DNA from: Trematomus loennbergii
Lineage: Eukaryota; Chordata; Actinopteri; Perciformes; Nototheniidae
NCBI GenBank assembly: GCA_012861695.1
Contig: JAAOOA010000654.1
Coordinates: 1-64,000, forward strand
Length of the DNA: 64,000 bases
Direction: 5' to 3'
Part shown: one piece after another, positions 2,751 to 61,189 of the stretch
Layout of the letters: every line of letters starts with the position of its first letter
Position numbering within the stretch: position 1 is the stretch's first letter
Made by a program: the position numbers and the translations under genes
Notes under the pieces: generated by a model
Seen by the model: the letters and a program-made list of their open reading frames with translations, nothing else
Databases searched by the model: none
Told to the model about the DNA's origin: nothing

Positions 2751-4540
2751 GATTACTATACATTCATAATTTCAGCGGAGGGAGCAAGAGCAGGGTGCGG
2801 GTTAAGAGGTGCCTCTTCTTCCCTTTACAAGCTTCAAAAAGGTATTTATCATGAGATTTTGGCAATAACAGTTTCATATTCTGAAAGCCAAGACTTTGTT
2901 TATTTAAAATCAAACAAAACACCCGAACCCTGAAAAACTAGTTTTTTACAGAAATCCACGTTTATTTTTAAATGAGCCGTTGCCACTTTTGACTGATTTC
3001 GACGAGCGGGTCACAAATAATAACAAATTAGAAGGAAAAAAATATATACAGATTTTAGTATTCTGAGGCTCTGAGCCATTTCTTTTCCTCACAGACGGCA
3101 AAAAAAAGCCAGACATTATACGATTTAAAATAAAAACAATAATCGTGGCTTGATATTGAGTAAGAACCAACGACTGTATATATAAAGGTAAGAACATGTT
3201 TTTATGAACCACACAGCTTCGGACAAAAAGACGCAGGCACGAAACATACTACCAATAGAAATACATTGCTTTTATAATCGTTCTGTGTGACACGAAAATC
3301 GTGTTGGTGAACACGAATCAATACATTACATTTATTTCGTGACTATAACACGAAATGCCGTGAGACTTGGTGCGTAATTAGACCTTAGCTTGTTAGTATG
3401 TTATAAATTATAAACTGAGGATATAAAATCTTGAAGTATTATACAAGTAAAACTACATTTTGCTTTAATCCCATGTAATTGTAGAATGAACACAGTCTTC
3501 TTTTGAAGATGTATAAGTCAGGTGTCTTGAGTAGTCAACATGACCTACAAATCATTGTACACATTTGTAAATATTATTTTCCACTTGTTGCCATTGTGAG
3601 TCTTTGTATGCAGCTCTGCGTGATTTTGTGGCTACAATTCAGGCTAATGACCAGAGGTGGAATAAGTACTTGAGTAAAAGTAGAAGTACTCAGATATTGT
3701 ACTTGAGTAAAAGTAGAAGTACTCAGATCTTGTACTTGAGTAAAAGTAGAAGTACCAGAGTGTAGGGATACTCTGTTACAAGAATAAGTCCCTTAATCAA
3801 AATGTTCCTCAAGTAAAAGTAGAAAAGTATTATTATCAAAATATAGTGAAAGTAGCGACAGTAAAAGTAGTCATTGTGCAGATTGGTCCATTTCAGAATA
3901 ATATATATGATATGATGATGCCTTACAGATCTACTTTTAAACTTAGTTTTCTTTTCTTTAATTTTTCATCCTCATGTAGAATGCTATCACGAAACACACG
4001 TTTGGTTGTTTATAGCATAAAGAACATCTGATTTAATGTGAGGTAGGGAAATAATCATTTGAGTATAAGTATGTGTATATAAATATGTAATTTACAACAG
4101 CTGTAAGATGCTTGAAAAGTTTGAAAATGCACCTTGAAAATGCTTGAAAAGTGCTTGAATTTGACTTTGGAAAAGGTGTAAGAACCCTGAAAGCCACTAG
4201 ACTCCTCATTTGACCTCGCACAAGTTGCTTGTCCGCTGGTGCCCTGATTGGGTTTGTTTGTGTGTTTTGTGTGATTTCATTGAATCTGAATAACCCTTTA
4301 AAACACCATAGTCACACAATAACAAGATCTAACTCACCAATCGCAGTAAATCACACCTAATACAGAAGAAAATATTATTATTATTACGTTCATTTTATAA
4401 AGCTTAGCTACTTTGCTGCGGTCTGCTGGGATTTACTTGAATTGTTATCATTTGTCACTTCTGTTCACTCATATTGTACTTGCAATTTTTAAGATGTCTC
4501 TATATAAACTACCAACAGAAATAAAGAATATTTTAACCAA
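2751..4540. other. Intergenic DNA with one short 33 bp-family repeat
   Basis: No gene is visible. 3650-3920 is a short copy of the dispersed AGTAAAAGTAGAAGTACTCA element (about three 33 bp units, then the conserved flank TAAAAGTAGTCATTGTGCAG). The rest is AT-rich unique-looking sequence downstream of the minus-strand gene that ends at 4757. Confidence 0.5.
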
Positions 4541-4552: not shown

Positions 4553-4756
4553 GTAAGTGGGAAGTCATTGTACAGAATTCACATGTTAACCAAAAACACA
4601 AACTTCAGACATTGATAAGAAAATCTTGAATTTTCAACAACTTATTCTCAGTGTTTAATATCTCCTTGAAGAGCGAAGATTTGTGAATGTAGGAAATAAA
4701 ATGACAGCTCTTAACATCTGTGCCTTAATCCATTCAGCTTCCATGTGACCCTCAGA

Positions 4757-5588
4757 TTATGGCTGATTCATGAACTGAAAGGAGAAAAAAATAGATATTA
4801 TAAATTAAAAATATAACCGTATGTATTCCACACCAGATACAGGATATTGTCATCCATCCAAATGGGATCTAAATATTCCCACATGCATATTTGCCAGCTC
4901 ACCTGCTTGTATGAGAAGCTGGCCACCTGGCAGTCACACGGTAACCTCAGCTGATGAGTATTGAAACGATCTGAGACGAGAAGCTAGAGTATTATCACTG
5001 TCTCTATACATGTAAATAGAATATGATATGTACAAGAACAGAATATGAAATTAAATAATGTTCATTAAGACTAAATTAAATACGGTTTATTGCGGTGATA
5101 ACTATTTATATAAACAAGTAGATTTTAACACAAGAAGTCTCCTCAAACCCAAAACATCAGTTCATCATCGTTTGATTCAGAAATATAACTCACACTGGAC
5201 CAGATCTGCCGTCACGTGAAGCTTATATTCAACATTGTGGATGCACTATATATCTTGGGTGAAATACAGTGAAGTAAAGACCATGTACTATAGAATTATG
5301 TAATTGTACTGTGTTGCTCTCCACCACTGGCAGCACTAAGTGTGGGGCACAGATCATTTGGTTTCTATTAACCTGTATGTTCTTGCCTGTGTGCGTGACA
5401 TAAGCTGCTCATAACCAATAGCCCCTTGCAGGATTAATAAAGCTGTTGATTGATTGATTGATTGATTGATATTACCTCTGAGGATCAGGAGTTTGGTCAT
5501 GACGGCCACATATCGTCGTATTCGATCCCGTCTCTGGAGCGGATCCCGTTCCACAGAACTATGAAGGTTTCATCGTCCAAGTCGAATT
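4757..5588 (-). CDS. Last three exons of the CRD/PEF gene (EF4-EF5 region and stop)
   Basis: Exons 5588-5476, 4970-4903 and 4774-4757. The first encodes [19 protein letters not shown] and then, one base out of frame near 5525, [16 protein letters not shown]. Together these align with the EF3/EF4 stretch LSPQT...RI..YVA...KL of grancalcin-like proteins. The next exon joins in phase 1 ([19 protein letters not shown]) and the last gives FMNQP-stop, matching the short C-terminal exon of PEF proteins. One added base makes the 113-base exon fit its phases. Confidence 0.6.
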
Positions 5589-8500
5589 CTGCAAGGCAAC
5601 ACCAGATTAAGCAAAATGCAACTCGAGTGCTTCTGCTTTCCTTAAAGGTCTCTATCATGCACTTTTTTATACATAAATATGTGTCCCCAGGAGACTCACA
5701 AAGAAAATAAAACCCTCTCTCTTTTCCTCCGTACCCACATCTCAAAAACAGGGAACCACGGAGCTGATCCAGATTTGCGTCCGATATAACGTAATATCTG
5801 AAATGTGGGCGGGCTTTACACCCACGGGCCAATCAGAAACGTTGCTATCAGAAACAATGCGCGACATGTTTTGGACGTAATATGGTCTGTGTTTACATTA
5901 GCAAGCATCGCTAACGCTCAGAGCTAACCTGTACTGGAGAGAGTATGTGTAAAGAAGCAGGAAATACAAAAAGGAACTCACCTGGTGGTAAACCTGAGAG
6001 AGAAAAAGAGTTTGAACTCCATACTGTTTCAGAAATAATCCTTGATCACGGGAGCATTTAGCTGAGTATCTCCGTAGAATTCTGATCAGGCATTAGCTCC
6101 CACCCCCTCTTTGTTCAAGCTAAGGACCCAGAATCAGCGTTTCTCTAACAGGGCTGGAATAGAGGGATATGAGGGATGTCTAAAATGCATGATCTGTTTG
6201 GTATTTTGAGCAAAAACACATATTATATATTTTTATATATCTGAGACCCATAAGATATGCTTAAAAATAGCACGATAGGAGACCTTTAATGTGTCTAGAA
6301 GCTTGTAAGCTGATGATTCAATACGTGGTTATAAGAAAAGCAATCAGTGTGAAGACAGAACGAGTCACCGTGGACGGACAAAGCCTTTTCATTTGGGTTT
6401 GAGTGACGGAGGGCGGGTTCCTGCTCTCGTAGCTCTCCACATATTCCCGCCTGACAACAGCCGCATAGTGCTCCATCTTGAAGACCTCGACCACATTCAG
6501 GTCTCCAGACTGGTCTGCCTGAAAGCCCTCGGTTAAAGAACTTGAATTAGTCGAAGGAATGCACCTCAATATCCTTATAGCATAGATGGGAATCAACTTC
6601 AAGAGCATTATCATCTGGCCGGGGACAACAGCTGGAAATTAGCAATGTTGGCTAAAGCTGCCCCATTTACTGTTTTTGTCACAGTTGATCAACGGGGAAA
6701 CTAGACTATAACGTTGTTGTTGGAGCTAAATATTGCATCAGATCAGGTTGGTGCCAGTAGAAATGTTTGGCCGTTGCAAAGGATACGTCCATGAAGGTCA
6801 ACAGGAGACGGGCTGTCTTGAGAGTCAGGGCTAAATAAGGGGCGATAAATATGTTAGAGTGTAAAAACTTCTCATTCAGATGATTGAATATATTAAGTGG
6901 AAAATAAACGGACTATTGCCACGAACGGTGTAGCCCCCGGCGTTCAGCTTAGCGAGAACTCCTTCAGCATCCAGCGTCTGTCGGAAACAAGAGAGATGAA
7001 CCAAGAACTGACAACACAACATGCAATATATATATAATACAGTAAGTTTAATATAAACATTTTGAGGACTTTTTACCCCAAAGGCTAAGAGTTGTGTGAA
7101 ATTTGAAAGAGACATTTTAATAAAGTTTTGTGTTGTTAAATGCGGCCCCCATTAACTTCAAATCATTAGACTTTTCTCTGTTTTTTGATTATTCGATCAC
7201 TCTGACGTTTTATTTAAGGAAACACAGGTGAGTAACTGATGCACAAATTGTCAATTAGCAGATTTCTGTGCTATTTATTCTTCCAGTTTGGACTGGGCAC
7301 ATGCTATTCCTCTCAAATCAACACAGTAGGAGTCACTGGTGCAGCAATGAGGACAACATCCCAACATCTTCCCAACACGACTTACTTTTCCCTTCAGCTA
7401 CCTTTAAACCCTTAAGTTAAGTCCTCTCCTGTAAGAACTATGAACATTTATTTTGGTAAATACTCACATCTGGCCTGCTGTCTTCCTGTGAAACAAAAGG
7501 AAAGGATGTCATGTAAAAACAGAACAGCAAAGGGAAATCCAATGATCATTCATTTACATCATCAAATTGAACCCTATGATATCATATTTTTATAATTGTA
7601 AATGTATATCGTATGTGGACATACATTTAGATTTAGAAAAAAATAATTTAGTTTTTGGGAGAAGGGGTGGGATTAAATAAGTGTAAATTCTTCCCACCCC
7701 TTTTCAGATGTGTAACTAGGTAGATCATTTGTTTATATTTAATTTGTAAGTCAATAATAATTTATTTATCAATTTGATACTGCTTAGGTTTGTACAGTAT
7801 CATCAGTTTCATTTCATTATTATTATTATTGTATTATTGTTTTACACGTTCGAAATAAATCAAATCGAATCAAAACCTGTCTAAATATATTTCTATCCAC
7901 AACGTGTCCGTTTCTTACCGATACACACATTTGCTCGGGGAAAGCGTTGCACTGCAGGTCGTTTGGCCAGGAAACCCCGAAGCTGGCCATCGTCCCCTCG
8001 CAGCCCCGCTTGGCTCTTTCACAGAAGGACCTGCAGGGCCGCTGCACTTCCCCTCCAACACTTGGGGGCGTACACCATGCAGACGAACAGGCGGACGTCC
8101 ACGGGGCACATGGACTGAGCCATGGCGTTGAAGAAGGACATCTTCCCCACGCCTCCCTCTGACTGGTGTGTCCCAGCAGGTTGGGGCTGATGGTCTGGTT
8201 GTAGGAGAGGTGCTGGCACATGGGGATGGTGATCGGCTCACAGACCCCCCCACTGCTGCCCACTCCATACTGCAGCAAGAGAAGAAGAGTGCACCAAGTC
8301 AGAGAGGGCAGAAGTACACACATCCTTTCCTCAAGTAGAAGTACAGATACTCGTGTTTAAGAATACTCTGGTAAAAGTAGAAGTACTGACTAAACTTCTT
8401 TACTCAAGTAAAAGTAAAGAAGTATGGGCTTTGAAATGTACTTCAGTAAAAAGTACCCATAACTACCAGCTGTTTTTTTTTTTAAAGCCAGAAATGCTCA

Positions 8501-11500
8501 AAAGTGTTCTGATATTAGTTGGTGATTTTACAATAAAAGTGTTTTCTAAAATCAAGTTGGATTCATTTCCTGAAACAAGATGATCCTTCTTTACGAATAC
8601 CACAGCAGCTAAAAAAACATGTTTCTTCTGAGATACAAGACTATATCTCCCTGCATTGTTACTTCTTCAGTTATTAGGTCTTATATCCAGTGTGAGGACA
8701 TATTCTGACTGGAAATCAGACACATATACTTTTGAGTTTTTCGTAAACATTTGTCCTCAGAGAGCAGACTCACGTGTTCGCAGGACTCGGTGGAAAAGGC
8801 TTCACACCTGAGGGCTGTCGGCCACACAAAACCAAACTTATTCATCAGTGGTTCGCAGCCGGAGCGTGCGTGTTCACAGAGCGTCCTGCAGGGGGGCCGC
8901 GGCGTCCCCAACACACACTCAGGGGCGTAGACGGAGCACAGGAAGGGCTGGAGGTGAGGGGAGCAGCTCACTTTAACCAGAGGAAAAAACTGAATCATCT
9001 CCAGGCGGGCATCCTCCTGAGAGGCGTGGCCCAGGAGGTTCGGCAGCACAGTCTGAGAGTAGGGAAGGGTTCTGCACAGAGGGATGGTGATTTGCTCACA
9101 TGATGCAGACGATGGTTGAGGGAAACCTTGAATCTGAAAGAACGGAGATAAAAAAATATGTGAAAAATGTAGTTATTTGGCATGGCTAAGTGTCTTACTG
9201 GCTTTCACCTAAAAATGTCCCTCAAAGAGAAAAGGTAGCATTGAGGAAGAGACTCAAATGGACCACAAAGAAAACACAACTTCTACGAGATCCTAAGAAT
9301 ACAAAGAGGTGCAAAACAGCCGCTAAAAGGAAACAATAAATAACTGCAAAGACATGCAAATGAAACAGCTGAAAAAAAACAAAAGCAAAGAGACCAAACC
9401 AATCTACAAAGAGGTGCAAAACGGCTCCGAAGAGAAACAAGCCCTTATGAAACAAAAATATATTGTAATATATTGGTAAATATAATACAATATATTGGAT
9501 CATACATTTCCATATATGGGAAAGTAGTCCTTATATTTTAAATATATTGCAATATATGCATGGACCATGTATGGCTATATATTGATACATATAAAAAATA
9601 TATATTGCAATGAAAACAAAAACTGCACTATACATTTATATGTAATAGTTTTATTGAAACACTCATTTATCTTTCATGAGTTTACATAAAATTGAACAGA
9701 TATTCATAAACAGTTATCTCACTTCGTTTTGTATAGTTACCCACTTTATATATGAACATATGTTTGATGGTAGCCTACATATAAAAAAAGTACAAATTGT
9801 CCATTGAATGATGGAAAATAATATACAGTTTATAAATATATATAGACACACACATATATGCACGCATATATATATGCATATATGCACGCATATATATTCA
9901 TATATATATATATATAAATATATATATATGCATATATGCACGCATATATATATGAATATATGCACGCATATATATCTATGCATATATTACGGCCGACCGG
10001 CTATTTGGAGTGGAACGCGGCCCATCCACGGCAGACAGCCCAAACAGTATTCGAATGCGCCACTTCCGGCTGATTTCGGGGAGCCCCCCCCCCTCTCCAG
10101 CAATAGATTGATCTGATTGGCAGATTCAAATGCTGCCTCTGTCTGTTGAGCTGAGTGTCAAAGAGAAAGCATTCATCAGGTGCTTCGAAACGGAAAATTA
10201 AAAAGAAACGAGAGGAAAATACAGCACCAGAGTCAGGTATGTGTGTGAGCATTTAAAACTATTTTAAATTGAAATAATTCTGCATGTACACTATAAGTAG
10301 TCTAGTTGCTTAATCCGTATGTCCCGTCTCTCGGCACTACACCAGCTACATTAGCTAACGTTAGTTAAATTAGCTATGTTAGTTCCCTCGTGTATGAGTG
10401 TATAACCGGTCCGCAGCTTTGTGAACATTCAATTTCGAAGATTTTCGATTTTACAGTCAACTGAAGTCGACCCAAAACAGCCAAAAATAGCGGACCTTTA
10501 GATCGCTAACATTTTAGCATAAGTCAATGGAGTTTAACATAGCGAAAACTAGCCCCACGGCTAACGGACATTTTCTGACTGGTGACGATGATGAGCTAGT
10601 TAAGTAATGTAACCACAGTTAGTCTATGTCTTGTAAATTCCCCTTGTTCTCCTTGATCTGCATTATATCGTTCGTGTTTTAGTCAGGCACATTTAGGGAC
10701 AGCTAAAGTAGTTCAGCTACGGGTCTTCGAGCTGGTTACACATGTGCGTTCAGGACATTATTGCGCATCGTCACATGCATAATTACCATCGTCACAGAGA
10801 GAATGCGTTCGTGAAGAATGTGAGCATATATGCAGATCTTTAGTGTTGGTAATGTTATAAGATTGTATGCATAGTGTCCTGCTCAGTCAGTGTGTTAATG
10901 AGTCTTGATGTCCCGTTTTTAGTTTCTATGTTGTTCAGGAATTGAGCTAATGCTAGCTAGTTAGCTAAGTTAAGCTATGATAGTGTGTGGATGAGATGCT
11001 AACTTAGCTTTTATTAGCCGTGTGTTTGCAACGTGTCTAATGTGTTTTAGCAACAATTAGTATTGCTGTTGCTTATTATTAATAACCATCGTCTGGTTAG
11101 TTATTGTAATTTGAACCTTATTTCTATTTCTGTGTATTTTGCAGAAACCATTCATTCATTCTCTACTCTACGTTAGGCTATGTGTTGTGGACTAATGCAT
11201 TCAAGTTAGTTCACATTTTAGTTGTTATTGCCCCTGCTGACAATTGTGTGGATAATATGTAGCCTACAGTCAATGGCATTTCACATTTTGCTCTCCAGTG
11301 TATGTTATTTTAATGTTGACCCATAATACTATATATCTATATATTTTACAGGAGCATTGTTGAAATTCATAGGTCGAACTAAGCCTGCAGAACCACAAGT
11401 CAAGAGGACAGAGGAGCCAGATAGCAGTGGTGACTGAGACAGAATAAATAAGGAGAGAGGGCCCATGCAGAGGCAGACATCAGTAGTGAGGAATCAGACC

Positions 11501-14500
11501 CAAAATATACGAGGACAGAGGAGCCAGATCGCAGTGGTAAGGAACGCACTGTCATTTAATTTCACTGTCATTTTACTTTTCACATATCACTTTATTCACT
11601 ATTCAGCTTAGTTATCCTTGCCATGAAGGATTGAATGGATGAATGTTCTATATTATTTTAATGACAGATTGAACCACAGCAATATTGTTTTAGAGATTTT
11701 ATATGTTTAACTGCTATGCCTGTCATCTCTGCTCTGTGTCATTGTGTTGTCTCCTGGGTTCTGTAGTGCCCGGAGTCTGTCTTTTTATTTTTTTCCTCCC
11801 AAACCCCATCCCCTCAGGACGCCTTTTGCCTCCTGTCAGGTCATCATTGTAATAAGAATTTGTTCTTAATTGATTTTCCTGGCTAAATAAAGGTTCTACT
11901 ACTATTTATTCAGTTATTTTATTACTGGTACTGCTAATTGCATTATGCGTATTGTTGTATATTGTATATACGTATGTATTTACTACTACTACTTACAAAA
12001 TCGAGGGTTGTAGCTTTGTGTCAGTACATATTTCAGGGTTTTTCTATGCCTTTGTTCATCTAAATTCTAATACTCATAGGCGACTACCACTCCTGCCGAT
12101 GCGATGCCGAGGCCCAGTTCTCCCTTCCCACCACCCCAGGCTCATTGTGCTAGGTAAAACTCTCATTCAATAAAAGTAGTCTTTTAAAGGTGGGGTAGGT
12201 AATTTTGGAGAAACCAGCTCGAGTGCGCTAGAATTTGAAAATACACAGCCGGAAAAAATCTGCCACTTCCTCACAGAGCCCCTCCTCCAACACACACGAA
12301 CGCGCACATGACCAATGAGGGCACGAGATAAGTTTGTGCACAGATGGAAGGCTGACAGGCAGGTAGGCCATCCAGTCATTTCAGCCGGGCCGGCTAAAAT
12401 GATTGGATGTGCTTTTTACAGTACACGGCTTCCACAGATGATATTTTTTTATGGATTTTTTGTCAAAGCACTTCAGATATTCATTGCTATCGGGATGTTA
12501 AGAGCATTCCATGGAATATAACAAAAGTGTATCTCGAGCCGGTTTCTCAAACTTACCTACCCCACCTTTAAAGATGAATGCAATTACATTTAAAAAAGTT
12601 TTAAACAGAACTGTTACAGATGCAGATGCTTGGTCCAAATTCCATAAAATATACCAACCAGTAGCGCCACACTCAGACGAAAATGTACAAAGCCTATTCT
12701 TCCACTATTTGTATTCCCACATTATTCACCAAGCCAGCCCATGCTTTAATATAGATATTATGGATATTGTTATAATTCCTGCTGTCTTTTGTGAACTTCT
12801 AATTATTTGTAATTGTTCTGTTCCACAGATGCTGTAGTAAACCACCATCCAGGGACCAAGACATCAGATATAAGAACATCCATTAACACAAGAATTTGTG
12901 AGTAAAGGCACGAAAAAAACAAGATTGACGATCAAATAGGGTACAAGACTGTTTTTTTGGCCCTGTTCCGGACTTGTTTTAATGAGTGATCAGCTCATGT
13001 TTAAAGTTGTCACCAGGTGAAACAAAAAACAAGATTGTTAAATAGGATAACAGACTGCTCTTTTTGGCCCTGTATGAAATAACAATGCATCATTTATTAA
13101 CTATACCTATACAAAATGTAATACATTTTCCCTTCATTATGTAATAACACCTCCTTTTGTAATAATTTGCCCATTATGTAGTAAACAAGTTCAATGCAAA
13201 TATGTAATACATGTCGCCACATTTTGAAATATATTATTACATATTGCTGTGGTTATTACAAAATGAGTTGCAAACAATAACATTACAACTGTTTATTTAT
13301 TTATTCAACCATGAATCATCCTTACTCATAATTTAAAAATACTTCAGTAGAATATCTTTCATTGGCCAAAACTAGATCAAGTGTTACCATATTCATTAGC
13401 CAACATGTATATCAACATCAATTTTGGGATATATTTACAGTTTGGTTATGGTTACATAATGAATATTACAGTTTTTTAAAAGGGCAACTCACGCATTTTG
13501 TAATAACCATTGCAAAATGTAATAATTTATTACAAAATGCAGGGACATTTATTTTATATTGCGTTCAGGCTGTTACAGAATGCAGCAGATTATTACAAAA
13601 TGTGGGTTTTATTACATAATTACATAAAAATGTTCTTGAGTCATGACATAATGTGTTGTTTATAGGCCTTTTCTTTTATTCGTTCCTTGTCCTTCTTTTA
13701 ATGAGTATTTTGATAACTGTTACACATTGATAGAAAAAAACAAATTAAGCTTCTCATTATTCAGACTCAGCTCTCAGCGCTTAAGCTTCTTTTAAATGTT
13801 GATAAAACCAAGGTAATGCTCTTTTCAAAAGCTAAAAAGACACCAGAGCCTGTTTTAGATATTTTAATTACACAAGGAATAAAACTTGAAGTGGTTACCT
13901 GTTACAAATACCTTGGTATCTGGCTTGATGATTGTCTCACTTTTAAACTTCATGTCAATAACCTGCTTAAAAAACTGAGGGTTAGGCTAGGTTTCTTTCC
14001 AGGAACAAGTCCTGTTTCTCACTTGAGGCCAGAAAAAGGCTAGTCACTGTGACCTTTTTACCTGTACTGGACTATGGTGATCTGATCTATATGAATGCAC
14101 CTGCCAATTGCCTGGTCAAGTTAGATGCCGCCTATCACAGTGCACTGAGATTTGTGACAAACTGTAAAGTATTAACCCATCACTGTACCCTGTATGCAAG
14201 GGCAGGTTTGCCTTCACTAACTGTACGGAGGCTCAGTCACTGGTACATTTTTATATACAAAGCCATGTTAGGGAAACTTCCTTCCTACATCTGCTCCCTG
14301 ATCTCACGGCGAATTGTAAGTGGCTACTGCCTGAGATCGAATGCTGTGGTTTTATTAAATGTGCCAACTGCTAGGACTGTCTTAGGGAAGATAGCATTTA
14401 GATGCGCAGCTCCGCTAACTTGGAACAGTCTGAGCAATTTGGTTCCGCTAAATGTTTTTAAAGCAAGGATAGATACTATCCAATCGGAAACTGTTGGAAC

Positions 14501-17500
14501 CTGTAAATGTTACTAGCTATGTAAACTGTAGTCACTGTAAATATGCTGTATGATGTCCTTTTTTGTTTTTCTGTTATGTTTATATGTATTCATGTGGAAC
14601 CTACTTGCAGCAGGTCACCCTTGAAAAAGAGATCAATGATCTCAATGGGATTCACCTGCATAAATAAAGGTTTGAAATGAAATGAAAGATTTTTTTTATC
14701 AGAACATGCATTTCTCCTCATTGTGAACATATATTGCACTCATGTTCAGAATATATGGTACGTACATGGTCTTTTATAAATCTGAATATATATAGTGCAT
14801 ACATGTCCCCATATAATTGTGAATATATAGCGCATACATGTCCCCATATAATTGTGAATATATGCATACATGTCCCCATAAATGAATATATAGAGCATAC
14901 ATGTCCCCATATATTGTGAATATATATAGTACATGTCCCCATATAATTGTGAATATATTCTACATACATGTCCCCATATAAATCTGAATATATAGTACAT
15001 ACATGTCCCCATATATTGTGATATATATATAGTACATGTCCCCATATAAATGTTAATATATAATAAAATGTATGTTCACATATCCCCAATATATTATATA
15101 TATTTACATTATTATCAATATATGGAAAGCGGCAATTACTGATGTATTATCCCATATATTACAATATATTATCACAATATATTATTCAATATATATATAT
15201 TGTAATATATTAAACAATATATTATTCTATATATCTTCAATATATTTTCAATATATTTTGTAGATATGAATAAATATGTTTTTCATGTTGATTATTAATC
15301 AGTATCACTTGGTGTAGCCAACAGCAAGATTTCCTTTATTAAATCTTTTCAATTAACCAGTAAATCAGAAAACAAAATAATGCAATATATTGACAGTTAA
15401 TATATGGGGAAATATATTTTCTTTGCGTAAGGGAGATGAACCCAAAGGAGACTAGTGGTGGCACATAGTGAAATCACTCTTACCCCATTCACACCAACGG
15501 TGTTTCAGGGCCGGTTCGGAGCTGGAGCTTGAAAAGCACCGGGTTTTCCTGTTCACACCGCAGCGGAGCAGCCTCTAAGCTCCGGAATCCGGTTCGTTTC
15601 GAGCACCAAAAAGTTGTCCGTCTAGAAGCAAGAACCGCATACGTCACGCTTACGTCGGAGGGGGCGAGATTAACCTGAGCTAACAGTTAAGGCGAGTACG
15701 GCAAATAAAAGTTGTAACAAGCAGTAGTGCTGAGCAAAGTGACTAGAACGCAAACACACACTTGTTAAAAAAAAACACACTTTATAAAGTCAGGCAACAC
15801 TAACCAGGCTTCGTGTGATTCTGTTTATTTGTACCTTACTTTGACCATCCGTTCGCTGTTATTGATCATTGTGGAGAGCAGGCAGACGTTTTGTTTGTTA
15901 TTATAGCAGCTATCGGATGGAATCAATACATGGGCTGCACAGGTTGTCATGTCCGACTATCACAAGTAGAATCATAATGAAAAATACGCCGGTAAAAAGT
16001 GCCTGTAGAAAACGGCTTAGCAAGTAGTCAGTTTAGCTTCGGTTGCTATGCTAACATCACCCATGTTATACCAGAAACTTTCATAACAGCGTTGTGATGC
16101 CAAACAGCGTCAATTCAGACTGACACCCATTCACTTAAGGGAACTGGGGATATGTATCAGCTGCTTGTGTGACAGTCAGACAGTGAATACTTTAGAGCCG
16201 TGTGAGCTAACCCGGAGCTAACGGGAGAATACACTCCCGTTGAAGAGCAGCCAGCACTGCAGCGGTCGGTAAATGCCGCTGAAACACATTAATAAACAAT
16301 GAACCACGGCACTCTGGAGAAAAGTATAAGGTTGGAGAAGTCGTTATTTAATTTAATCTGGCTTCGTATGATTAAAAGCAACACGATCATCGACCCGACG
16401 CAGTCCCCGGCCCGTTGTTGTTGTGAGGTGAGCTCCGTTGGGGAGAAAATCAGCGACGTAAACTGTGACGTCATGACGCAGCAGCGGCAGCACCAGTCGG
16501 GCTCTGAGCGGTGTGAACAGAGCCGGAGCTAAACCGAAGTATCGGTTCTGAACCTGAAAAGCTCTAGCACGGAGCTTGAACCGGAGTTGCGTTGGTGTGA
16601 AAGGGGTATATGTAACAGTTGTGCTCCTATTGGCTAGCGCTCCAACACATGGTACGTGATAGGCTAAGGGGCGGGACATCTCTAAGCGGTTGACCAATCA
16701 CAACAGAGCCGGCTAGCTAACCAATCAGAGCAGACTGGGCTCTGGTTTCAGACAGAGGGTGAAAAGAGGTGGAGAGGACTCTTTAAAGTAGAGACACTAC
16801 ATACTGATATACACCTGAACATCAGCAGGAGAGGACTCTTTAAAGTAGAGACACTACATACTGATATACACCTGAACATCAGCAGGAGAGGACTCTTTAA
16901 AGTAGAGACACTACATACTGATATACACCTGAACATCAGCAGGAGAGGACTCTTTAAAGTAGAGACACTACATACTGATATACACCTGAACATCAGCAGG
17001 AGAGGACTCTTTAAAGTAGAGACACTACATACTGATATACACCTGAACATCAGCAGGAGAGGACTCTTTAAAGTAGAGACACTACATACTGATATACACC
17101 TGAACATCAGCAGGAGGACTTTTTAAAGTAGAGACACTACATACTGATATACACCTGAACATCAGCAGGAGAGGACTCTTTAAAGTAGAGACACTACATA
17201 CTGATATACACCTGAACATCAGCAGGAGAGGACTCTTTAAAGTAGAGACACTACATACTGATATACACTGGAAAGTAGAAAACGAGGAAGAGGAGACTTA
17301 CGTTCTCGCAGCTCTCGGTGGTGAAGGCTTCACATCGCAGGGCTTCTGGCCACTGGATGTCGTATTTGTTCATCAGGGATTCACAGCCCGACCTGGCCTT
17401 CTCGCAGAGCGTCCTGCAGGGAGGCCGACCAGCGCCCGACACACACTTCGGAGTGTAGACGGAGCACAGGAAAGGCTTCAGGTGAGAGGAGCAGCCCACT

Positions 17501-18281
17501 TGGATGAGAGGGGAATACTTGTTTATCTCCAGGCCGGCCTCCTCCTGAGAGGCGTGGCCCAGGAGGTTCGGCAGCACAGTCTCGGTGTACGTCTGGTCCC
17601 GGCACAGATCCACGCTGATCTCCTCACATGTAGCGACGATGTTTGAGCGGGGCTGGAGACCTGACCCTACAGGAACAGAAACAAATCAGCGCTGTCCATA
17701 AAACCACTTCAAAGGTTTTATTGTCATATGCACATAAGCTAGTGTAGATATGTCAATGAAAATCTTAGGTCACAGGCTCCTCCAACAGTGCAACATGAAT
17801 ATATATAGGACATAGAACAAATAAAACAGATACAATAGGATATATACAAGTAAATGGAATATGATATAAGATGCAAACAGATGAATGTTTTCACACTGAC
17901 CTGCACGCAGTTGTTCTCAGACAGAGTGTCGCAGCGGAGCCTCGACGGCCAGTTGATCCTTTTGGCTTTCAGCGGAGCTTCGCAGTCCGTCTTCACCTTC
18001 TCACACAGCGCTCGGCACGGCCTCATCCGAGCGTCCTCCTCCGAGCCGCACTCCGGCACCACGACACGGCACATGAGCAAGGCCACGTTCGGAGAGCACG
18101 AAGTCTCCACGATCTGTCCTATCTCCCGCAGGTTGTACCCCGTCGCTCCTGCCGGATGTTGGGTGGTGGAGTACCCCAAACCCTGACAAAAGGCGGAGGT
18201 CATGGGCTTGCAGTTTGTCCTGCTTTGTGCCCGCAGAGGAACCAGCAGCGAACCCAAAACTACTAAAAACAAACACTCCAT
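4757..18281 (-). CDS. Secreted protein with four Frizzled cysteine-rich domains and a C-terminal penta-EF-hand domain
   Basis: Proposed exons, in transcription order: 18281-17901, 17652-17302, 9133-8774, 8269-7919, 7485-7468, 6977-6923, 6830-6787, 6518-6369, 5588-5476, 4970-4903, 4774-4757; about 636 residues. Exon 1 starts with a signal peptide ([20 protein letters not shown]) and runs into CRD1; exons 2-4 each encode one CRD. Exons 5-11 read as a PEF domain: an EF1-like loop across the 18-base exon and its neighbour, a canonical EF2 loop [12 protein letters not shown] split by an intron after its first Asp, a degenerate EF3, and a tail ending SFSYKQFMNQP, like sorcin or grancalcin. CRDs bind Wnts or lipids in Frizzled and sFRP proteins; PEF domains bind Ca2+ and dimerise. 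What the combination does is unknown. CRD4 and the 5588-5476 exon carry frame breaks, and the 6369/5588 join is one base out. The CRD part is secure; joining it to the PEF part is inference from compatible phases and the absence of a promoter or start between them. Confidence 0.7.
5318..5475 (+). repeat. LINE 3' tail with TTGA microsatellite abutting a splice donor
   Basis: AGGATTAATAAAGCTGTTGA followed by (TTGA)n is the typical 3' end of a teleost non-LTR element. The tail begins within about eight bases of the splice donor of the exon ending at 5476, so the donor reads GTAATA and then TCAATCAA. Confidence 0.55.
5642..6289. mobile_element. MITE with TTAAAGG inverted termini (copy A1)
   Basis: Starts TTAAAGGTCTCTATCATGCA and ends AGCACGATAGGAGACCTTTAA, so the ends are inverted copies. 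The interior includes GTGTCCCC, AAACCCTCTCTCTTTTCCTC and GAGCTAACCTGTACTGGAGA. The same termini and interior recur at 21771, 50964, 51645, 40707 and 57833. It lies in an intron of the PEF region. Confidence 0.8.
6369..7485 (-). CDS. PEF-domain exons (EF1, EF2, degenerate EF3) of the CRD/PEF gene
   Basis: Exons 7485-7468 (18 bases, EDSRPD), 6977-6923 ([18 protein letters not shown]), 6830-6787 ([14 protein letters not shown]) and 6518-6369 ([15 protein letters not shown] onward). Phases join as 0/0/1/0. Order and spacing follow sorcin-like PEF proteins: an EF1 loop followed by xDAExxxxLN, a GGY hinge, an [12 protein letters not shown] helix where sorcin-family members have LETCRLMVSMLD, then the EF2 loop D-x-D-x-S-G-x-L-x-x-x-E. 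The next ~30 residues occupy the EF3 position but lack the acidic ligands. The 55- and 44-base exons rest on weak donors (C|GTGGCA, GAC|GTATCC), so their edges may be off. Confidence 0.6.
7919..8269 (-). CDS. Exon 4 of the CRD/PEF gene: CRD4, with two compensating frame breaks
   Basis: 117 codons as read, phase 0 at both ends (acceptor TTGCTGCAG, donor TCG|GTAAGA). The beginning ([30 protein letters not shown]) and the end ([26 protein letters not shown]) lie in one frame. The conserved middle ([25 protein letters not shown]) lies in another. The shifts are near 8150 (one base missing) and 8058 (two missing). No stop intervenes, so the exon stays open but about 30 residues of the domain would be altered. 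The conserved middle frame argues that the shifts are recent or are sequence errors. Confidence 0.85.
8774..9133 (-). CDS. Exon 3 of the CRD/PEF gene: CRD3
   Basis: 120 codons, phase 0 at both ends (acceptor TTCTTTCAG, donor CAC|GTGAGT). Starts [15 protein letters not shown] and continues [46 protein letters not shown]. Closest to CRD2 by eye, so these two probably arose by exon duplication. The intron separating them is over 8 kb because of a large transposable element. Confidence 0.9.
9134..9441. repeat. Simple AAAGAGGTGCAAAAC-type degenerate repeat
   Basis: Intron sequence upstream of CRD3, with loosely repeated CAAAGAGGTGCAAAACRGCC motifs at about 9300 and 9409, a common short tandem motif of fish genomes. 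No exon seen. Confidence 0.5.
9835..9990. repeat. AT-rich microsatellite (ATATATGCACGC type)
   Basis: Alternating CATATATGCACGCATATATA motifs. It is purine-pyrimidine alternating and self-complementary, so it could form cruciform or Z-like structures. Its open frames are low complexity and not genes. Confidence 0.75.
12183..12573. mobile_element. MITE with AAAGGTGGGGTAGGTAA inverted termini
   Basis: About 390 bp. The left end CTTTAAAGGTGGGGTAGGTA continues into GAGAAACCAGCTCGAG; the right end reads CTCGAGCCGGTTTCTC then TTACCTACCCCACCTTTAAAG. The arms are imperfect ~40 base inverted repeats. Nested in the 6 kb element. Confidence 0.75.
13000..13640. repeat. Degenerate TTACAAAATGTAATAA repeat region
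   Basis: Dense recurrence of ATTACAAAATG / CATTTTGTAAT in both orientations, without a fixed period. It lies inside the 6 kb element. Possibly transposase-binding sub-terminal repeats or simple sequence; no coding signal. Confidence 0.4.
13740..14690 (+). pseudogene. 5'-truncated non-LTR retrotransposon (reverse transcriptase C-terminus), broken
   Basis: The translation contains [15 protein letters not shown] and [18 protein letters not shown] in one frame, then after a stop near 14041 [37 protein letters not shown] and PLTWNSL. These are the end of the reverse transcriptase and thumb region of teleost LINEs of the Rex1/L2 type. The body ends in TGAAATGAAATGAAA after AATAAAGG, the usual LINE 3' tail. 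The 5' part, including the endonuclease, is absent, so it is a dead insertion. Confidence 0.8.
14755..15055. repeat. ~35 bp minisatellite (ATACATGTCCCCATATAATT)
   Basis: About nine copies of a unit containing ACATGTCCCCATATA and GTGAATATATAG, with length variation between copies. It yields long frames rich in YMGTC on the minus strand that are not real proteins. Confidence 0.85.
15481..16608. mobile_element. ~1.1 kb non-autonomous DNA transposon with ACCCCATTCACACCAACG termini
   Basis: Left end TACCCCATTCACACCAACG; right end CGTTGGTGTGAAAGGGGTA, its near-perfect inverse. The interior is GC-moderate with CACACC/GGTGTG sub-terminal motifs (TTCACACCGCAGCGGAGC, GGTGTGAACAGAGCC). No transposase seen. 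Confidence 0.75.
16615..17272. repeat. 57 bp minisatellite array 1, with its host-element flank
   Basis: 16771-17270 holds about nine copies of a 57 bp unit (GAGGACTCTTTAAAGTAGAG ... CTGAACATCAGCAGGA). The preceding 16615-16770 is the conserved flank of the same mobile element (CTATTGGCTAGCGCTCCAAC ... GGTTTCAGACAGAGGGTG), also present at 19064 and, inverted, near 26585-26735. One copy is shortened. It sits next to the CRD2 exon. Confidence 0.85.
17302..17652 (-). CDS. Exon 2 of the CRD/PEF gene: CRD2
   Basis: 117 codons, phase 0 at both ends (acceptor TCTCCAG, donor AAC|GTAAGT). The nearer-consensus acceptor at CCTGTAG, 14 bases earlier, would put it out of frame. Contains [51 protein letters not shown] and LRCEAF: a textbook ten-cysteine Frizzled CRD. 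Its donor lies only about 30 bases from the end of a 57 bp minisatellite in the next intron. Confidence 0.9.
17695..17890. repeat. Dispersed repeat in intron 1 of the CRD/PEF gene
   Basis: TTATTGTCATATGCACA ... CTTAGGTCACAGGCTCCTCC matches a second copy at about 31060-31265 (TCATTGTCATGTGTGCAGAG ... AGGTCACAGGCTCCTCCCA). A short teleost interspersed repeat, probably a LINE or SINE 3' end. Confidence 0.6.
17901..18281 (-). CDS. Exon 1 of the CRD/PEF gene: signal peptide and CRD1
   Basis: 127 codons ending in phase 0 at a CAG|GTCAGT donor. The start was chosen because it is followed at once by a hydrophobic leader. CRD1 runs from about residue 24 ([15 protein letters not shown]) to residue 125, with the usual Frizzled spacing: C..C near the start, [32 protein letters not shown] and NNC. 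It diverges most from the other three domains: the PNLLGH motif is replaced by HPAGATGYN. It may therefore have a different ligand role. Confidence 0.88.
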
Positions 18282-18954: not shown

Positions 18955-19988
18955 GGGTTTTCCCCTCCTGTATGTGTTATAGGTTTTAGTGCATGTTAAT
19001 GGTCTCCAAAGGCTAAAATCTCTGTGTTTCCTCCAGAGGGAGTTTCTCTCCCAAACACTATGGAACAATCCTATTGGCTAGCGCTCCAACACATTGTACG
19101 TGATAGGCTAAGGGCGGGACATCTCTAAGCGGTTGAACAATCACAACAGAGCCGGCCAGCTAACCAATCAGAGCAGACTGGGATCTGGTTTCAGACAGAG
19201 GGTGAAAAGAGGTGGAGAGGACTCTTTAAAGTAGAGACACTACATACTGATATACACCTGAACATCAGCAGGAGAGGACTCTTTAAAGTAGAGACACTAC
19301 ATACTGATATACACCTGAACATCAGCAGGAGAGGACTCTTTAAAGTAGAGACACTACATACTGATATACACCTGAACATCAGCAGGAGAGGACTCTTTAA
19401 AGTAGAGACACTACATACTGATATACACTTGAACATCAGCTGGAGAGGACTCTTTAAAGTAGAGACACTACATACTGATATACACCTGAACATCAGCTGG
19501 AGAGGACTCTTTAAAGTAGAGACACTACATACTGATATACACCTGAACATCAGCAGGAGAGGACTCTTTAAAGTAGAGACACTACATACTGATATACACC
19601 TGAACATCAGCAGGAGAGGACTCTTTAAAGTAGAGTCACTACATACTGATATACACCTGAACATCAGCAGGAGAGGACTCTTTAAAGTAGAGACACTACA
19701 TACTGATATACACCTGAACATCAGCAGGAGAGGACTCTTTAAAGTAGAGACACTACATACTGATATACACCTGAACATCAGCAGGAGAGGACTCTTTAAA
19801 GTAGAGACACTACATACTGATATACACCTGAACATCAGCAGGAGAGGACTCTTTAAAGTAGAGACACTACATACTGATATACACTTGAACATCAGCTGGA
19901 GAGGACTCTTTAAAGTAGAGACACTACATACTGATATACACCTGAACATCAGCAGGAGAGAACTCTTTAAAGTAGAGACACTACATAG
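18955..19988. repeat. 57 bp minisatellite array 2 in its host element
   Basis: 19213-19987 carries about 13-14 copies of the 57 bp unit. The left flank GGTTTTAGTGCATGTTAATGG is shared with the array near 42795, and the CTATTGGCTAGCGCTCC ... GGTGAAAAGAGG flank with array 1. The array breaks off after CACTACATAG. Long open frames on both strands are by-products of the 57 bp period. Confidence 0.85.
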
Positions 19989-20082: not shown

Positions 20083-27836
<7,754 letters not shown>

Positions 27837-29665
27837 CTCCCCATGCTGAGCAGCTGAAGGTAGATTCACTGACATGGGCTTAAAGGCCAGCTAATGCTAA
27901 CACAAGTTGTCTTGTTAACCCTGCCTTGTTTTACCAATTAAGAATACGTGTTTTAAAAAATATTGGGTACTTTAAATCGGCAGTTGATAAGCAAATCCAG
28001 CACAATAAGGCTTGTTGTGCTTAGCCACTTGATAGCTAGCATTGATGTAAAATTCACATGTAGGATGCGTTCAGGTGCGTCCGGTAATTCCTTCAGGCAG
28101 GGAGGGCGATCGAACAGAATCAGAATAAGAAATACTTTATTTATTTCCTGGGGATTTGGATTTTCGACAGTTGCTGTACTGTAATGAATTCATTTATTAA
28201 GATAAGTTTGAGTAAGAAATCGTGTATTATATTACAATATATAACAACAAAATTATATATTCATGTTTTTATTTCAACTTTCTGTTTGTCCATGAAGGTA
28301 ACATGACCCGGATGTTGAACGTTTGTTGTGAGCAGAAAGAATATCGAGGGTCGAAAGATTGCTGCAGGTCTGCTTTAACACTTTTAAAGTTATTTTAACA
28401 TATGTTATTGATGTGTATTGAATCAATATAGAACTGATTATGTTCACATACATTTATTGTTCAATTTCCGCTGAGAAACAGTTATCTACAGCGACTTAGA
28501 CACGGAGTTAGCATAGTAACGTTTGTGAGCTAACGTTAAGCTAACGGCTAAAAGGATGTTGTTTATTTTTAAAATAAGAGCTTTATTATGAGGAAACTCA
28601 GATCAACTCAGAGGAGGGAGAAGTACTCAGATGTTGTACTGAAGTCAACATAGAAGTACTCAGATCTTGTACTTGAGTGACAGTAGAAGTACCAGAGTGT
28701 AGAAATACTATTGATAAGTAAAAGTAGAAGTATTCATATCTTGTACTTGAGTCAAATTAGAAGTACTCAGATCTTATACTTCAGTAAAAGTAGAAGTACT
28801 CAGATCTTGTACTTGAGTGAAAGTAGAAGTACTCAGATCTTGTACTTGAGTGAAAGTAGAAGTACTCAGATCTTGTACTTCAGTAAAAGTATAAGTACTC
28901 AGGTCTTGTACTTCAGTAAAAGTATAAGTACTCAGGTCTTGTACTTGAGTACAAGTATAAGTACTCAGGTCTTGTACTTGAGTACAAGTAGAAGTACTCA
29001 GGTCTTGTACTTGAGTACAAGTAGAAGTACTCAGATCTGTACTTGAGTGAAAGTAGAAGTACTCAGATCTTGTACTTGTACTTGAGTACCAGAGTGTAGG
29101 AATACTCTGTTACAGTAAAAGTCCTGCATTCAAAATATTACTCAAGTAAAAGTAGAAAAGTATTATCATCAAAATATAGTGAAAGTAGCGACAGTGAAAG
29201 TAGTCATATACAGAATAATATATATGTTTTGGAGTAGATGTACAAAGAAGCATACAATTGAAATACTCGGGTAAAGTACAAGTACCTCAGAATTGTTCTA
29301 CAGTACTTGAGTAAATCTACCTAGTTACTTTTATCTACCCCATCACACTTACATTTGGTTTAATAAGAAAGCAACATCTAATGAAAGATGTGCTGATGCA
29401 TTCAAGGCCCCATGTTCTTTCTAAACTTGCAGGTTGTTGCACACCGGTTATATAAAATGTATTTTATTAAAGTCCTGCAAATGAAGACGTGATTTGATAA
29501 GGTCTCATTTCTCTCACAGGATGCTTTTTAACCGATGTGTCAGCTGATAAACGTTGCACTTACAAAGGTTGAAGACCCTTTGAGTTGGGAGGTCAAAATA
29601 AGCACATCTGCACGATTGCTTTGAGGAGACATTATTTTGACCTCTGCTGGACTGCGACCAGAACC
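27837..29665. promoter_or_regulatory. Divergent intergenic region between mettl25b and isg20l2
   Basis: The start codons of mettl25b (27836, minus) and isg20l2 (29666, plus) are about 1.8 kb apart head to head, so promoters of both must lie here or in 5' UTR exons within it. Much of it (28612-29340) is a 33 bp-array element. 28290-28560 is the most unique-looking part and the best place to look for the promoters; no TATA box is evident. Confidence 0.4.
28612..29340. repeat. 33 bp minisatellite array and flanks
   Basis: About 14 units of AGTAGAAGTACTCAGATCTT type, then the conserved flank (GTGTAGGAATACTCTGTTAC, AAAATATAGTGAAAGTAGCG) and the other element end (ACTTGAGTAAATCTACCTAG). It appears to be a complete element copy. 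Confidence 0.85.
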
Positions 29666-32661
29666 ATGTCGAACATTCTGATCAACGTGAGCCTTTCTGA
29701 CGAGCCTGCGCAGAAGAGGCCCGCCGCCGGTAAACTGGAAAACAAAAACATGCGGTATCGTAAAAAGCCTCTCTGGAAGGAAGGAATCATTACAACCACA
29801 GAACGGGACAAGTCCTGCCTCCACGGCAAAATGGAGCAAATCATTCAGCGCCTCCGACTTCCTCGAACAACACGACTTTACCGTCAAACTCACTCTGCAG
29901 CGCCCCGCCTTCAACGTCCGCTCAGTGCCAGGAAAAACCAAATGATGCTGGGAACACAAAAGCATCGCCCTCGTGCTCCAGCAGCCAGAAGCCCACCACC
30001 ACTCAGTCCTCCTCCTCCTCAGCAGCAATGCCCACCAAGTTCCTGGCCATCGACTGTGAGATGGTGGGCACGGGGCCGAAGGGCAGCATCAGCCAGCTGG
30101 CCCGCTGCAGCCTGGTGTCGTACGACGGAGACGTGGTCTACGATAAGTTCATCAACCCCCCGTGCCCGTCACGGACTACCGGACCCGGTGGAGCGGCATC
30201 CGGCACCGAGACCTCGTCAACGCCACGCCTTACATCGAGGCCAGGAAGGAGGTGAGGAAATCCTCTGATGTATTTATTTTTAAACTAATGTTCTTTTCAG
30301 AATTTAAAGATTTTCATAAGAAAAAAATCTGAATTCAGACTTTTTTCAGAACTCACATGAAAAGAAATCACTTTTCTCATTCATATAATTTCATTAAAGG
30401 TGTTTGAATACCCTTCGTTCAGTATTTCAACATGTAGCATGCAGAGGTGGGAGGATTACAAAGCAGCTAAACATTTAAATACTCAAGTAAAGTACCTCAA
30501 AATGTTTCAGTATAGTAAAAACACATTTCTGCTGCTGCACCGCAACATTTCCCAAATTGGATCAATAAAGTACTTCTTATCTTATCTTATGAGTACATGT
30601 ACTTCACTGTATACAGTCGTGGTGAGTTCATGGTCTCCAGCAAAATTAAATACCCTTCTCTCAGTATTTCAACATGTTGCACGCAGAGGTGGGAGAATTA
30701 CAAAGCGGCAAAACATTGAAATACTCAAATAAAGTACCTCAAAATTGTTCAGTACAGTACTGTAAATGTACTTCACTGTATACAGTCGTGGTGAGTTCAG
30801 GTCTCCTCTGTCGGCAGATACTTCGGCTGCTGATGGGCAAGGTGGTGATCGGACACGCCATCCACAACGACTTCAAGGTGCTGGGCTACGCGCACCCCGG
30901 GGTGCTGACCAGAGACACGTCCCGCATCCCGCTCCTCAACCAGAGGCCGGCTTCGCCCCCAACGAGGTGGCCTCGCTGAAGAGACTCACCAAGGCCATCT
31001 TCAACAGAGACATCCAGGTACCAGCAGCGCTCGGCCTTCTCTATCTGGGTTCTCTATTTTTGGTTTCATTGTCATGTGTGCAGAGCTACAGTGGAGATAT
31101 GACCATGAACATCTGAGGTCACAGGCTCCTCCCACAGAGCAACACAATAACACAAGTAAATCAAATACACTTGAATATAATAGAAACAGAATATGATAGA
31201 AACTGTGCAGAATAGTGTATATACAGTAATTGGAATATTGATATATATGAGTTGCAAACAGATTTACTTTTATGTATGCACCACGACACCAGTCAGGTAG
31301 GTGTCAACCCACCTGGTGATAAACCTGTTTCTGATTAAGAGCATTGAGAAACATATTATAAAATGGCATTTAAAAACACTCCTTTAAAAGCAAAGGAACA
31401 TGAATGAAAGTGACAGTGCCGTGTGAGATACACACATCTGAAATAGTTTTCTTTACCCTCACTTTCTTTCTACTTTCTTTTTAACTTATCCTTCAGTTGT
31501 TTCCAGTGTTTCAGGCTAAACGTCCCCCCTTTGTGAGATTATAATCTGCAACCCAATATTCCCAAATTCAACGGGCACAAGTCAGCGGTTCCCAACCTTT
31601 TCCCACTCAGGGCCACTTAAGAATCAACTAAATGTTTGCGGCCCACATTCAACCATAAACAATACGAAGGTTCTGATTGGTCGATTCAGAACATGTGACA
31701 CGTTGTAAATCCAGTAGTACAGACCGCTGTCAAGGACTGTAATGACCGTTGCTAAGGAGGATCGAGAAAGAGAAAGGAAAGGAGGTTCAAACACAAAAAT
31801 TATTCTTAATAATGAAATGTTTCCACACAAATCGTAATGTTCTGCAAATGATTTGGCGGCCCTCTTGCAATGCGTTCCCCGCTGGCATCAGTAATGTTTG
31901 TCATTTAGAAGTGGAAAGCAAAAGATATGCATATAAATGAGACGACGGTCTGAACTGATTGTATGTACAAAGAGAAAAAGGAACTACAAAGAACACAAAA
32001 CAAACAATAACAACGACGACTTAAAGGTCACCTATTGTGCAAAACCCACTTTCTCAACATGATTTAAAAAAAAAAAGATTCTCTCTCTTTTGATCCATTT
32101 CTATAAAAACCTGTCTGAAAATCAGCTGATCAGTTTTGGCCACTTTATGATGTCATAACGATGTTTTGTCTTGTGTAACCATTAGCCAATCAGCAACCAA
32201 GGTAACCCCCCCCCCCTTATCACCTGAATCTCCTCCTAGAGCACCATTGAGTTCTTTGTAACCAAATCTCTCTCAGAGGGGCGTGGGGAGGGCTCCTTAT
32301 TTTCATCTAAATAACAGACAGAGAATCAGCACTTTGGAAACAGGGCTGAAACAGAGGGGATTATGGGTAATGCTGCAACGATCTGTTTGGTGTTTCAGCC
32401 AATCAGAGACAGGCTCTGGATATATCTGAGACCTGGATATATGATGAAAAACTGTATAACAGGGGACCTTTAAGTAATGTGCTATATAAATAAACGTACC
32501 TTACATGTATGTGTGACGGCAAAGTGTCTCTCTCTCTGCGTCCTCAGACTGGGAGGAAGGGCCACTCCTCGGTGGAGGACGCCCGGGCCACCATGCAGCT
32601 CTACAGAGTGGTGGAGGAGCAGTTGGAGAGGACTCTGGCCTCAAAAGCTCAGAACACCTAG
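29666..32661 (+). CDS. isg20l2: Interferon-stimulated 20 kDa exonuclease-like 2
   Basis: Three coding exons: 29666-30251, 30818-31017, 32548-32661. Starts [19 protein letters not shown], like the family N-terminus, followed by a basic then Ser/Thr/Pro-rich linker. The DEDDh exonuclease domain shows Exo[14 protein letters not shown], Exo[13 protein letters not shown] and Exo[19 protein letters not shown], so all catalytic residues (D, E, D, H, D) are present. The mammalian protein is a nucleolar 3'-5' exoribonuclease that trims pre-rRNA to 5.8S; the same role is likely here. Three single-base deletions break the frame: near 29815-29835 in the linker, near 30166 (before the GAC TAC CGG ACC CGG TGG motif), and near 30946. 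Each is required for the exon lengths to fit splice phases, so they look like sequence errors. Ends [12 protein letters not shown] with a polyA signal 27 bases later. Confidence 0.92.
30395..30800. repeat. Short duplicated repeat in isg20l2 intron 1
   Basis: Two copies of CAGTATTTCAACATGT ... CAGAGGTGGGAG ... TACAAAGC (about 30420 and 30665), each followed by AAAGTACCTCAAAAT and GTACTTCACTGTATACAGTC. They are fragments of the dispersed AGTACTTGAGTA-type element. A LINE-like tail (GGATCAATAAAGTACTTCTT, then TATCTTATCTTAT) lies between. Confidence 0.55.
31560..32000. other. isg20l2 intron 2, no feature
   Basis: Intron DNA between a dispersed repeat (31060-31265) and a MITE (32021). It contains GGTTCCCAACCTTTTCCCAC, resembling the start of a common hAT-type element, but no complete element or exon. 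Confidence 0.4.
32021..32473. mobile_element. MITE family B, array-free copy
   Basis: TTAAAGGTCACCTATTGTGC ... ACAGGGGACCTTTAA inverted termini, about 450 bp. Interior nearly identical to the right half of the 23270-24257 copy but without its 37 bp array. It lies in isg20l2 intron 2, about 75 bases from exon 3. Confidence 0.85.

Positions 32662-42322: not shown

Positions 42323-61189
<18,867 letters not shown>

Follow-up and report, generated by a model that had tools for sequence, protein, structure and literature searches.

A 64-kb stretch of Trematomus loennbergii DNA (the window) contains a gene encoding four Frizzled-type (Fz) cysteine-rich domains (CRDs) followed by a sorcin-like penta-EF-hand (PEF) tail, and both the gene and the CRD–PEF fusion look real. 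We read the product, tentatively and with somewhat less than even confidence, as a teleost secreted protein with FZD1/2/7-like Fz domains and a sorcin-derived PEF domain, which would act as a decoy or carrier in the manner of secreted Frizzled-related proteins (sFRPs), the PEF domain being a structural dimerizer rather than a sensor. Our search of the open-access literature found no description of a CRD–PEF protein among the papers listed, judged by title or the opening of the abstract, in keeping with the impression gained from the sequence-only reading that the domain combination is unfamiliar.

Gene structure and frame breaks

Rebuilt within the window, the CRD–PEF gene has eleven exons on the minus strand, from 18281 to 4752. 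All 10 of its 10 introns, about 11.6 kb in total, are bounded by GT–AG, and the exon phases join once deletions are allowed for. The encoded order is a signal-peptide-like start, four ten-cysteine Fz domains, and the PEF tail. Exon 1 (17901..18281, 127 codons) carries the ATG, the signal-peptide-like start, and CRD1 (PF01392, E = 4e-20). CRD2 occupies exon 2 (17302..17666; PF01392 E = 1.4e-31), in which alignment to P0002, the 647 aa relative from Champsocephalus esox, places one −1 shift at 17636. The most Frizzled-7-like domain, CRD3, is in exon 3 (8774..9133; PF01392 E = 3.8e-33; PDB FZD7 CRD, E = 3.3e-45), and CRD4 is in exon 4 (7919..8269; PF01392 E = 1.2e-28), with shifts at 8152 (−1) and 8057 (−2) across which the sequence was joined by hand with X at the frame breaks. 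Four PF01392 matches thus exceed the 32.1-bit cut-off, one in each of exons 1 to 4, which upholds the earlier account of four ten-cysteine CRDs on separate exons; every CRD of P0002 has 10 cysteines.

The CRD4–PEF junction is an 18-nt microexon encoding EDSRPD (exon 5, 7468..7485; GT–AG, phase 0), identical in P0002. Exon 6 (6914..6977) holds the remains of EF1, its loop end and exit helix, as judged from the P0002 alignment and from the model of P0131 against 1gjy, and exon 7 (6787..6830) encodes the EF2 entering helix. The canonical EF2 loop, a long helix, and a degenerate EF3 follow in exon 8 (6369..6518; −1 shift near 6386), EF4 with a noncanonical loop in exon 9 (5476..5588; −1 shift near 5514), and the EF4–EF5 link, with a CxC pair, and the start of EF5 in exon 10 (4903..4970). 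Exon 11 (4752..4774) supplies the end of EF5 and the stop, with a −1 shift at 4765; read straight, the stop falls at 4757, the coding end given earlier, which we correct to 4752. The EF2 loop and the SFSYKQF tail that had been picked out before are both present. Exon 2 starts at 17666 and exon 6 ends at 6914, where the P0002 alignment places them; an exon 2 acceptor at 17652 and an exon 6 donor at 6922 were rejected.

The window gene is identical to P0002 at 595 of 640 residues (93%) and to P0003 from Dissostichus eleginoides, in which some segments are missing, at 581 of 619 (94%); identities of this order suggest a notothenioid source. For CRD1 the identity is 90% with P0002 and 94% with P0003, and the PEF part is 93% identical in the P0002 comparison. 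Relative to P0002, six deletions (17636, 8152, 8057, 6386, 5514, and 4765), five of one base and one of two, remove seven bases. If these breaks were genuine, the window copy would be a pseudogene, a view also favored by two neighboring pieces that read unbroken, a full Xlink domain and a portion of a methyltransferase domain, so that not all coding stretches in the window are damaged. We consider decay quite unlikely. There are no nonsense substitutions or insertions relative to P0002, the splice sites are intact, and the PEF part has kept its similarity. Moreover, an ISG20L2-like exonuclease gene (29573-31116, plus strand), about 30 kb into the window and used as a control for assembly error, has conserved exonuclease exons that switch frame twice in ~430 coding bases; once its pieces are linked manually with X, 143 residues align with human ISG20L2 (7yw5; E = 3.7e-59). 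Because this conserved neighbor is also frame-broken, assembly error is the likelier cause of the breaks in the CRD–PEF gene.

The CRD–PEF build among fishes

An initial protein search returned 261 matches, and 114 of the 120 listed match a PEF profile derived from 11 members of the family. The PEF match is absent from the other six: P0001, P0079 (partial), P0098 (krill), P0110, P0113 (isoform), and P0119 (crinoid). A further query, the last 308 residues of five members, produced 715 matches, 120 of them listed, and added eels: Anguilla and Synaphobranchus (one CRD plus PEF, 307 aa), Conger with two CRDs, and a fragment from Gymnothorax; the salmon PEF alone retrieved 5 proteins. Of the 215 proteins fetched, 127 match the PEF profile at E 0.01, including P0123, which contains a true sorcin. 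The same build is predicted in many other bony fishes, from eels to percomorphs among the matches listed. No fused member was seen in zebrafish or other Ostariophysi among the matches listed (120/261 and 120/715), and P0126 from Brachyhypopomus shows three Fz domains without a PEF match. Members are named in databases as "uncharacterized protein," "Frizzled-1," or "atrial natriuretic peptide-converting enzyme-like," and the corin-like and Frizzled-1 names look misleading.

These relatives are mostly predicted proteins, the Salvelinus model P0123 itself reads through two genes, and the introns preceding exons 5 and 6 contain in-frame ATGs, so that a separate start is possible by sequence. Annotation programs might thus have merged an adjoining CRD gene with a separate PEF gene. 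Several results make such an artefact very improbable. Nine members from the source "lgn," eight full-length (530–657 aa) and one partial (302 aa), carry both halves on contigs of at most 1.64–2.75 kb, with 64–816 bases beyond the reading frame; these short contigs are probably spliced RNA. Reading the introns between exons 4 and 6 by eye in three frames revealed no EF1 entering helix around exon 5. The distance between the final CRD cysteine and the EF1 exit helix equals 16 in 87 of the 116 proteins examined (other spans, 5; no pattern fit, 24), and the same build recurs in eels. The proposal that one gene joins the CRDs to the PEF domain is thus well sustained by the fused build from eels to percomorphs and by the nine short contigs with both halves.

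The 127 PEF-bearing proteins range from one CRD (7 proteins) through two (5), three (26), and four (74) to five (8) and six (7). These counts come from a small home-made profile and include partial models and possibly split domains; P0097 and P0093 (535 and 520 aa), for example, count as five CRDs and may contain split ones. Members with three CRDs include the salmonid P0118, Polymixia P0116, and Centroberyx P0105. When 51 CRDs were placed in a tree, the CRD2 and CRD3 domains of two percomorphs clustered with CRD2 of these three members (93/99), and the extra CRD therefore probably arose by doubling of CRD2. The CRDs of the family do not form one clade in this tree (two changes): the CRD1/CRD3 type stands apart from the CRD2 type, eel CRDs are apart, and a long crinoid branch lies inside. 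Because the CRD exons end in phase 0, their number could have risen from one to six.

Fz domains, PEF tail, and proposed function

The best PDB matches of CRD3 are FZD7, FZD2, and FZD1. Identity to a Frizzled-7 CRD found among the matches (P0190) is 64% for window CRD3, 58% for CRD2, and 31% for CRD1, compared with 47% for C. esox CRD4 and 62% for an eel CRD. Frizzled-type CRDs are a Wnt-binding kind of domain, and the HQFYPLVKV segment of Frizzled lines the Wnt lipid groove. CRD3 keeps QF.PLV, CRD2 has a partly changed NKYSPLIQV, the segment of CRD4 is changed, and CRD1 is without the PNLLGH segment. From these motifs, Wnt binding by CRD3 is plausible, and binding by CRD2 is less plausible than by CRD3. 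The divergence of CRD1 and CRD4 from the Frizzled groove segment, together with a CRD number ranging from 1 to 6, would also fit a secreted multi-CRD protein with a non-Wnt ligand, such as another lipid, an acyl protein, a matrix, or a pathogen surface. We regard that alternative as unlikely, though worth weighing, given that CRD2 and CRD3 of the window and icefish genes are still 55–64% identical to the Frizzled-7 CRD.

Unlike Frizzled-1/2/7, the CRD–PEF proteins have no 7TM domain that we could find: P0118, P0017, and P0105 gave no 7TM profile match, and no 19-residue window exceeded 1.6 in P0002 or P0118, with P0140 doing so near residues 8–13 only. A signal-peptide-like start, an Fz CRD, and the lack of a detected membrane span are shared with the sFRPs, including sizzled and sFRP3. 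Whereas sFRPs combine one CRD with a netrin-like domain, the CRD–PEF family has 1–6 CRDs and a PEF domain; P0118, P0017, and P0105 gave no netrin-like match, only Fz matches plus EF-hand matches below the cut-off. Corin likewise has Fz domains, and its trypsin, LDL-A, and SRCR domains have no match in the same three proteins. The N terminus of the window gene, for which a signal peptide had been proposed, is indeed signal-peptide-like by hydropathy alone. This start, the 10-Cys domains, and the gained CxC pair agree with the predicted extracellular location.

When the joined translation was compared with domain profiles, the Fz half of the sequence-only reading was recovered four times over, whereas the hand-joined PEF part had no Pfam match. 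The PEF part does match sorcin (E 1.9e-7) and grancalcin (2.9e-4) in the PDB by phmmer, and sorcin and grancalcin are the top Foldseek matches. The P0131 model aligns to sorcin 1gjy from residue 45, and the PEF sequence begins straight after the last CRD, at the equivalent of sorcin residue 45. Order and fold from the EF1 exit to EF5 are thus common to sorcin, grancalcin, and the CRD–PEF proteins. Relative to sorcin and grancalcin, a signal peptide and CRDs replace the Gly/Pro-rich tail and the EF1 entering helix, the place of which is covered by a CRD-derived helix in some alignments; EF2 alone is canonical, and the CxC pair has been gained. Among the 108 of 127 PEF-bearing proteins used for site counts (the other 19, whose PEF is incomplete or split, were left out), the EF2 loop is canonical in 103 and the EF3 and EF4 loops in none, and the CxC pair, which Salvelinus sorcin does not have, is found in 106. 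All 4 eel members have lost EF2, its ligands being gone. Ca2+ loops in EF1–EF3 are one mark of the PEF family; here, EF2 is the only canonical one, and EF1 is incomplete.

Sorcin is a calcium protein, normally intracellular. The EF5 segment is kept in the window gene, and dimerization through EF5 is plausible from its sequence. PEF proteins dimerize via EF5, and sorcin binds Ca2+ through EF1–3 at micromolar levels (PMC6271628). The canonical EF2 loop of 103 of the 108 relatives, which indicates constraint on the loop outside eels, could be taken to mean that Ca2+ at EF2 switches dimerization or CRD presentation in an extracellular Ca2+-responsive Wnt modulator. That idea is improbable: the loop is a single one (EF3, 0/108; EF1 incomplete), a site of the micromolar type would be saturated at millimolar Ca2+, and the four eels dispense with it. 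Of the Ca2+ responsiveness proposed earlier, then, the canonical EF2 survives, and the responsiveness itself is weakened by EF3 and EF4, the missing EF1 helix, and the eels. Since an EF2-type site would be full outside the cell, we prefer a structural, dimerizing role over a sensor role.

In the sFRP-like reading that we favor, the signal peptide would be removed and the protein would leave the cell. The ligand of CRD3 (QF.PLV kept), and perhaps of CRD2 (KYSPLI), would be Wnt or some other acylated or lipid molecule. The PEF tail would fold round one Ca2+ at EF2, and two chains would pair through EF5, with the CxC cysteines perhaps locking them together, to yield a multivalent decoy or carrier. 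Points against this explanation are the missing PNLLGH of CRD1, the changed groove of CRD4 and partly that of CRD2, the eels without EF2 ligands, the broken frame of the window copy, a full-length model whose pTM of 0.35 is too low to give the arrangement of the domains, and a calpain score close to or above that of sorcin in some PEF comparisons. If the explanation is true, the Wnt/Frizzled-domain field would gain a widespread secreted fish factor that has had no name, and a PEF domain would be seen to work outside the cell.

Origin of the PEF part and other features of the window

The Conger PEF is closest to sorcin (2.9e-15), followed by grancalcin (2e-12) and calpain (4.1e-12); for the P0017 PEF, calpain (3.5e-6) and sorcin (3.9e-6) tie, and profile A4 scores a two-PEF calpain chain (101.9 bits) above sorcin (84.1) and grancalcin (77.0). 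P0123, the Salvelinus namaycush "sorcin isoform X2," begins as a true sorcin whose last residues are ATFPYDD and continues as the start of a CRD–PEF protein (HRV-METWVLL), which, in that model, places sorcin immediately upstream of the CRD–PEF gene and on the same strand. This read-through suggests that the PEF part was captured from a tandem sorcin copy. The sorcin part of P0123 stops at the point matching the end of window exon 10 (ASFSYKQ), which suggests that sorcin and the CRD–PEF gene have an intron position in common. No sorcin gene was found inside the window by tblastn with the Salvelinus sorcin part at E 0.01. A possible scenario, of which we are far from sure, is that early teleosts captured the C-terminal exons of a tandem sorcin and so made from a Frizzled-type CRD an extracellular trap for Wnt or lipids, dimeric and multivalent, where a fold of cytosolic Ca2+ sensors would serve as an oligomerization module, and that this Wnt-pathway component is present, unnoticed, in much of the teleost radiation. 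If so, the gene would be a traceable new one, made by exon capture from a neighboring sorcin and then domain multiplication.

The window has no Rfam matches. A methyltransferase gene, presumably METTL25B/RRNAD1, lies at 22591-26392 (minus strand; PF13679, E 2.1e-11), and a hyalectan-like gene, probably brevican, lies at 50288-57345 (plus strand). In the latter, V-set and Xlink matches precede an open frame that holds ~22 copies of a 51-bp repeat. Intron 2 of the CRD–PEF gene contains reverse-transcriptase-like frames (13717-14516, plus strand), by eye apparently a LINE remnant. A 57-bp minisatellite unit forms four arrays, three on the plus strand and one on the minus strand, that match at 97–98%: 16771-17268, in intron 2 directly after exon 2, and 19214-19987, 42843-43782, and 61258-63512. 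A minisatellite with a 72-bp unit is common to 20535-21030 and 53241-54619, and a 33-bp repeat with a unit like GTAGAAGTACTCAGATCTTGTACTT.. occurs in six arrays (3666-3759, 27269-27543, 28619-29078, 36656-37750, 44368-44866, and 60075-60969).
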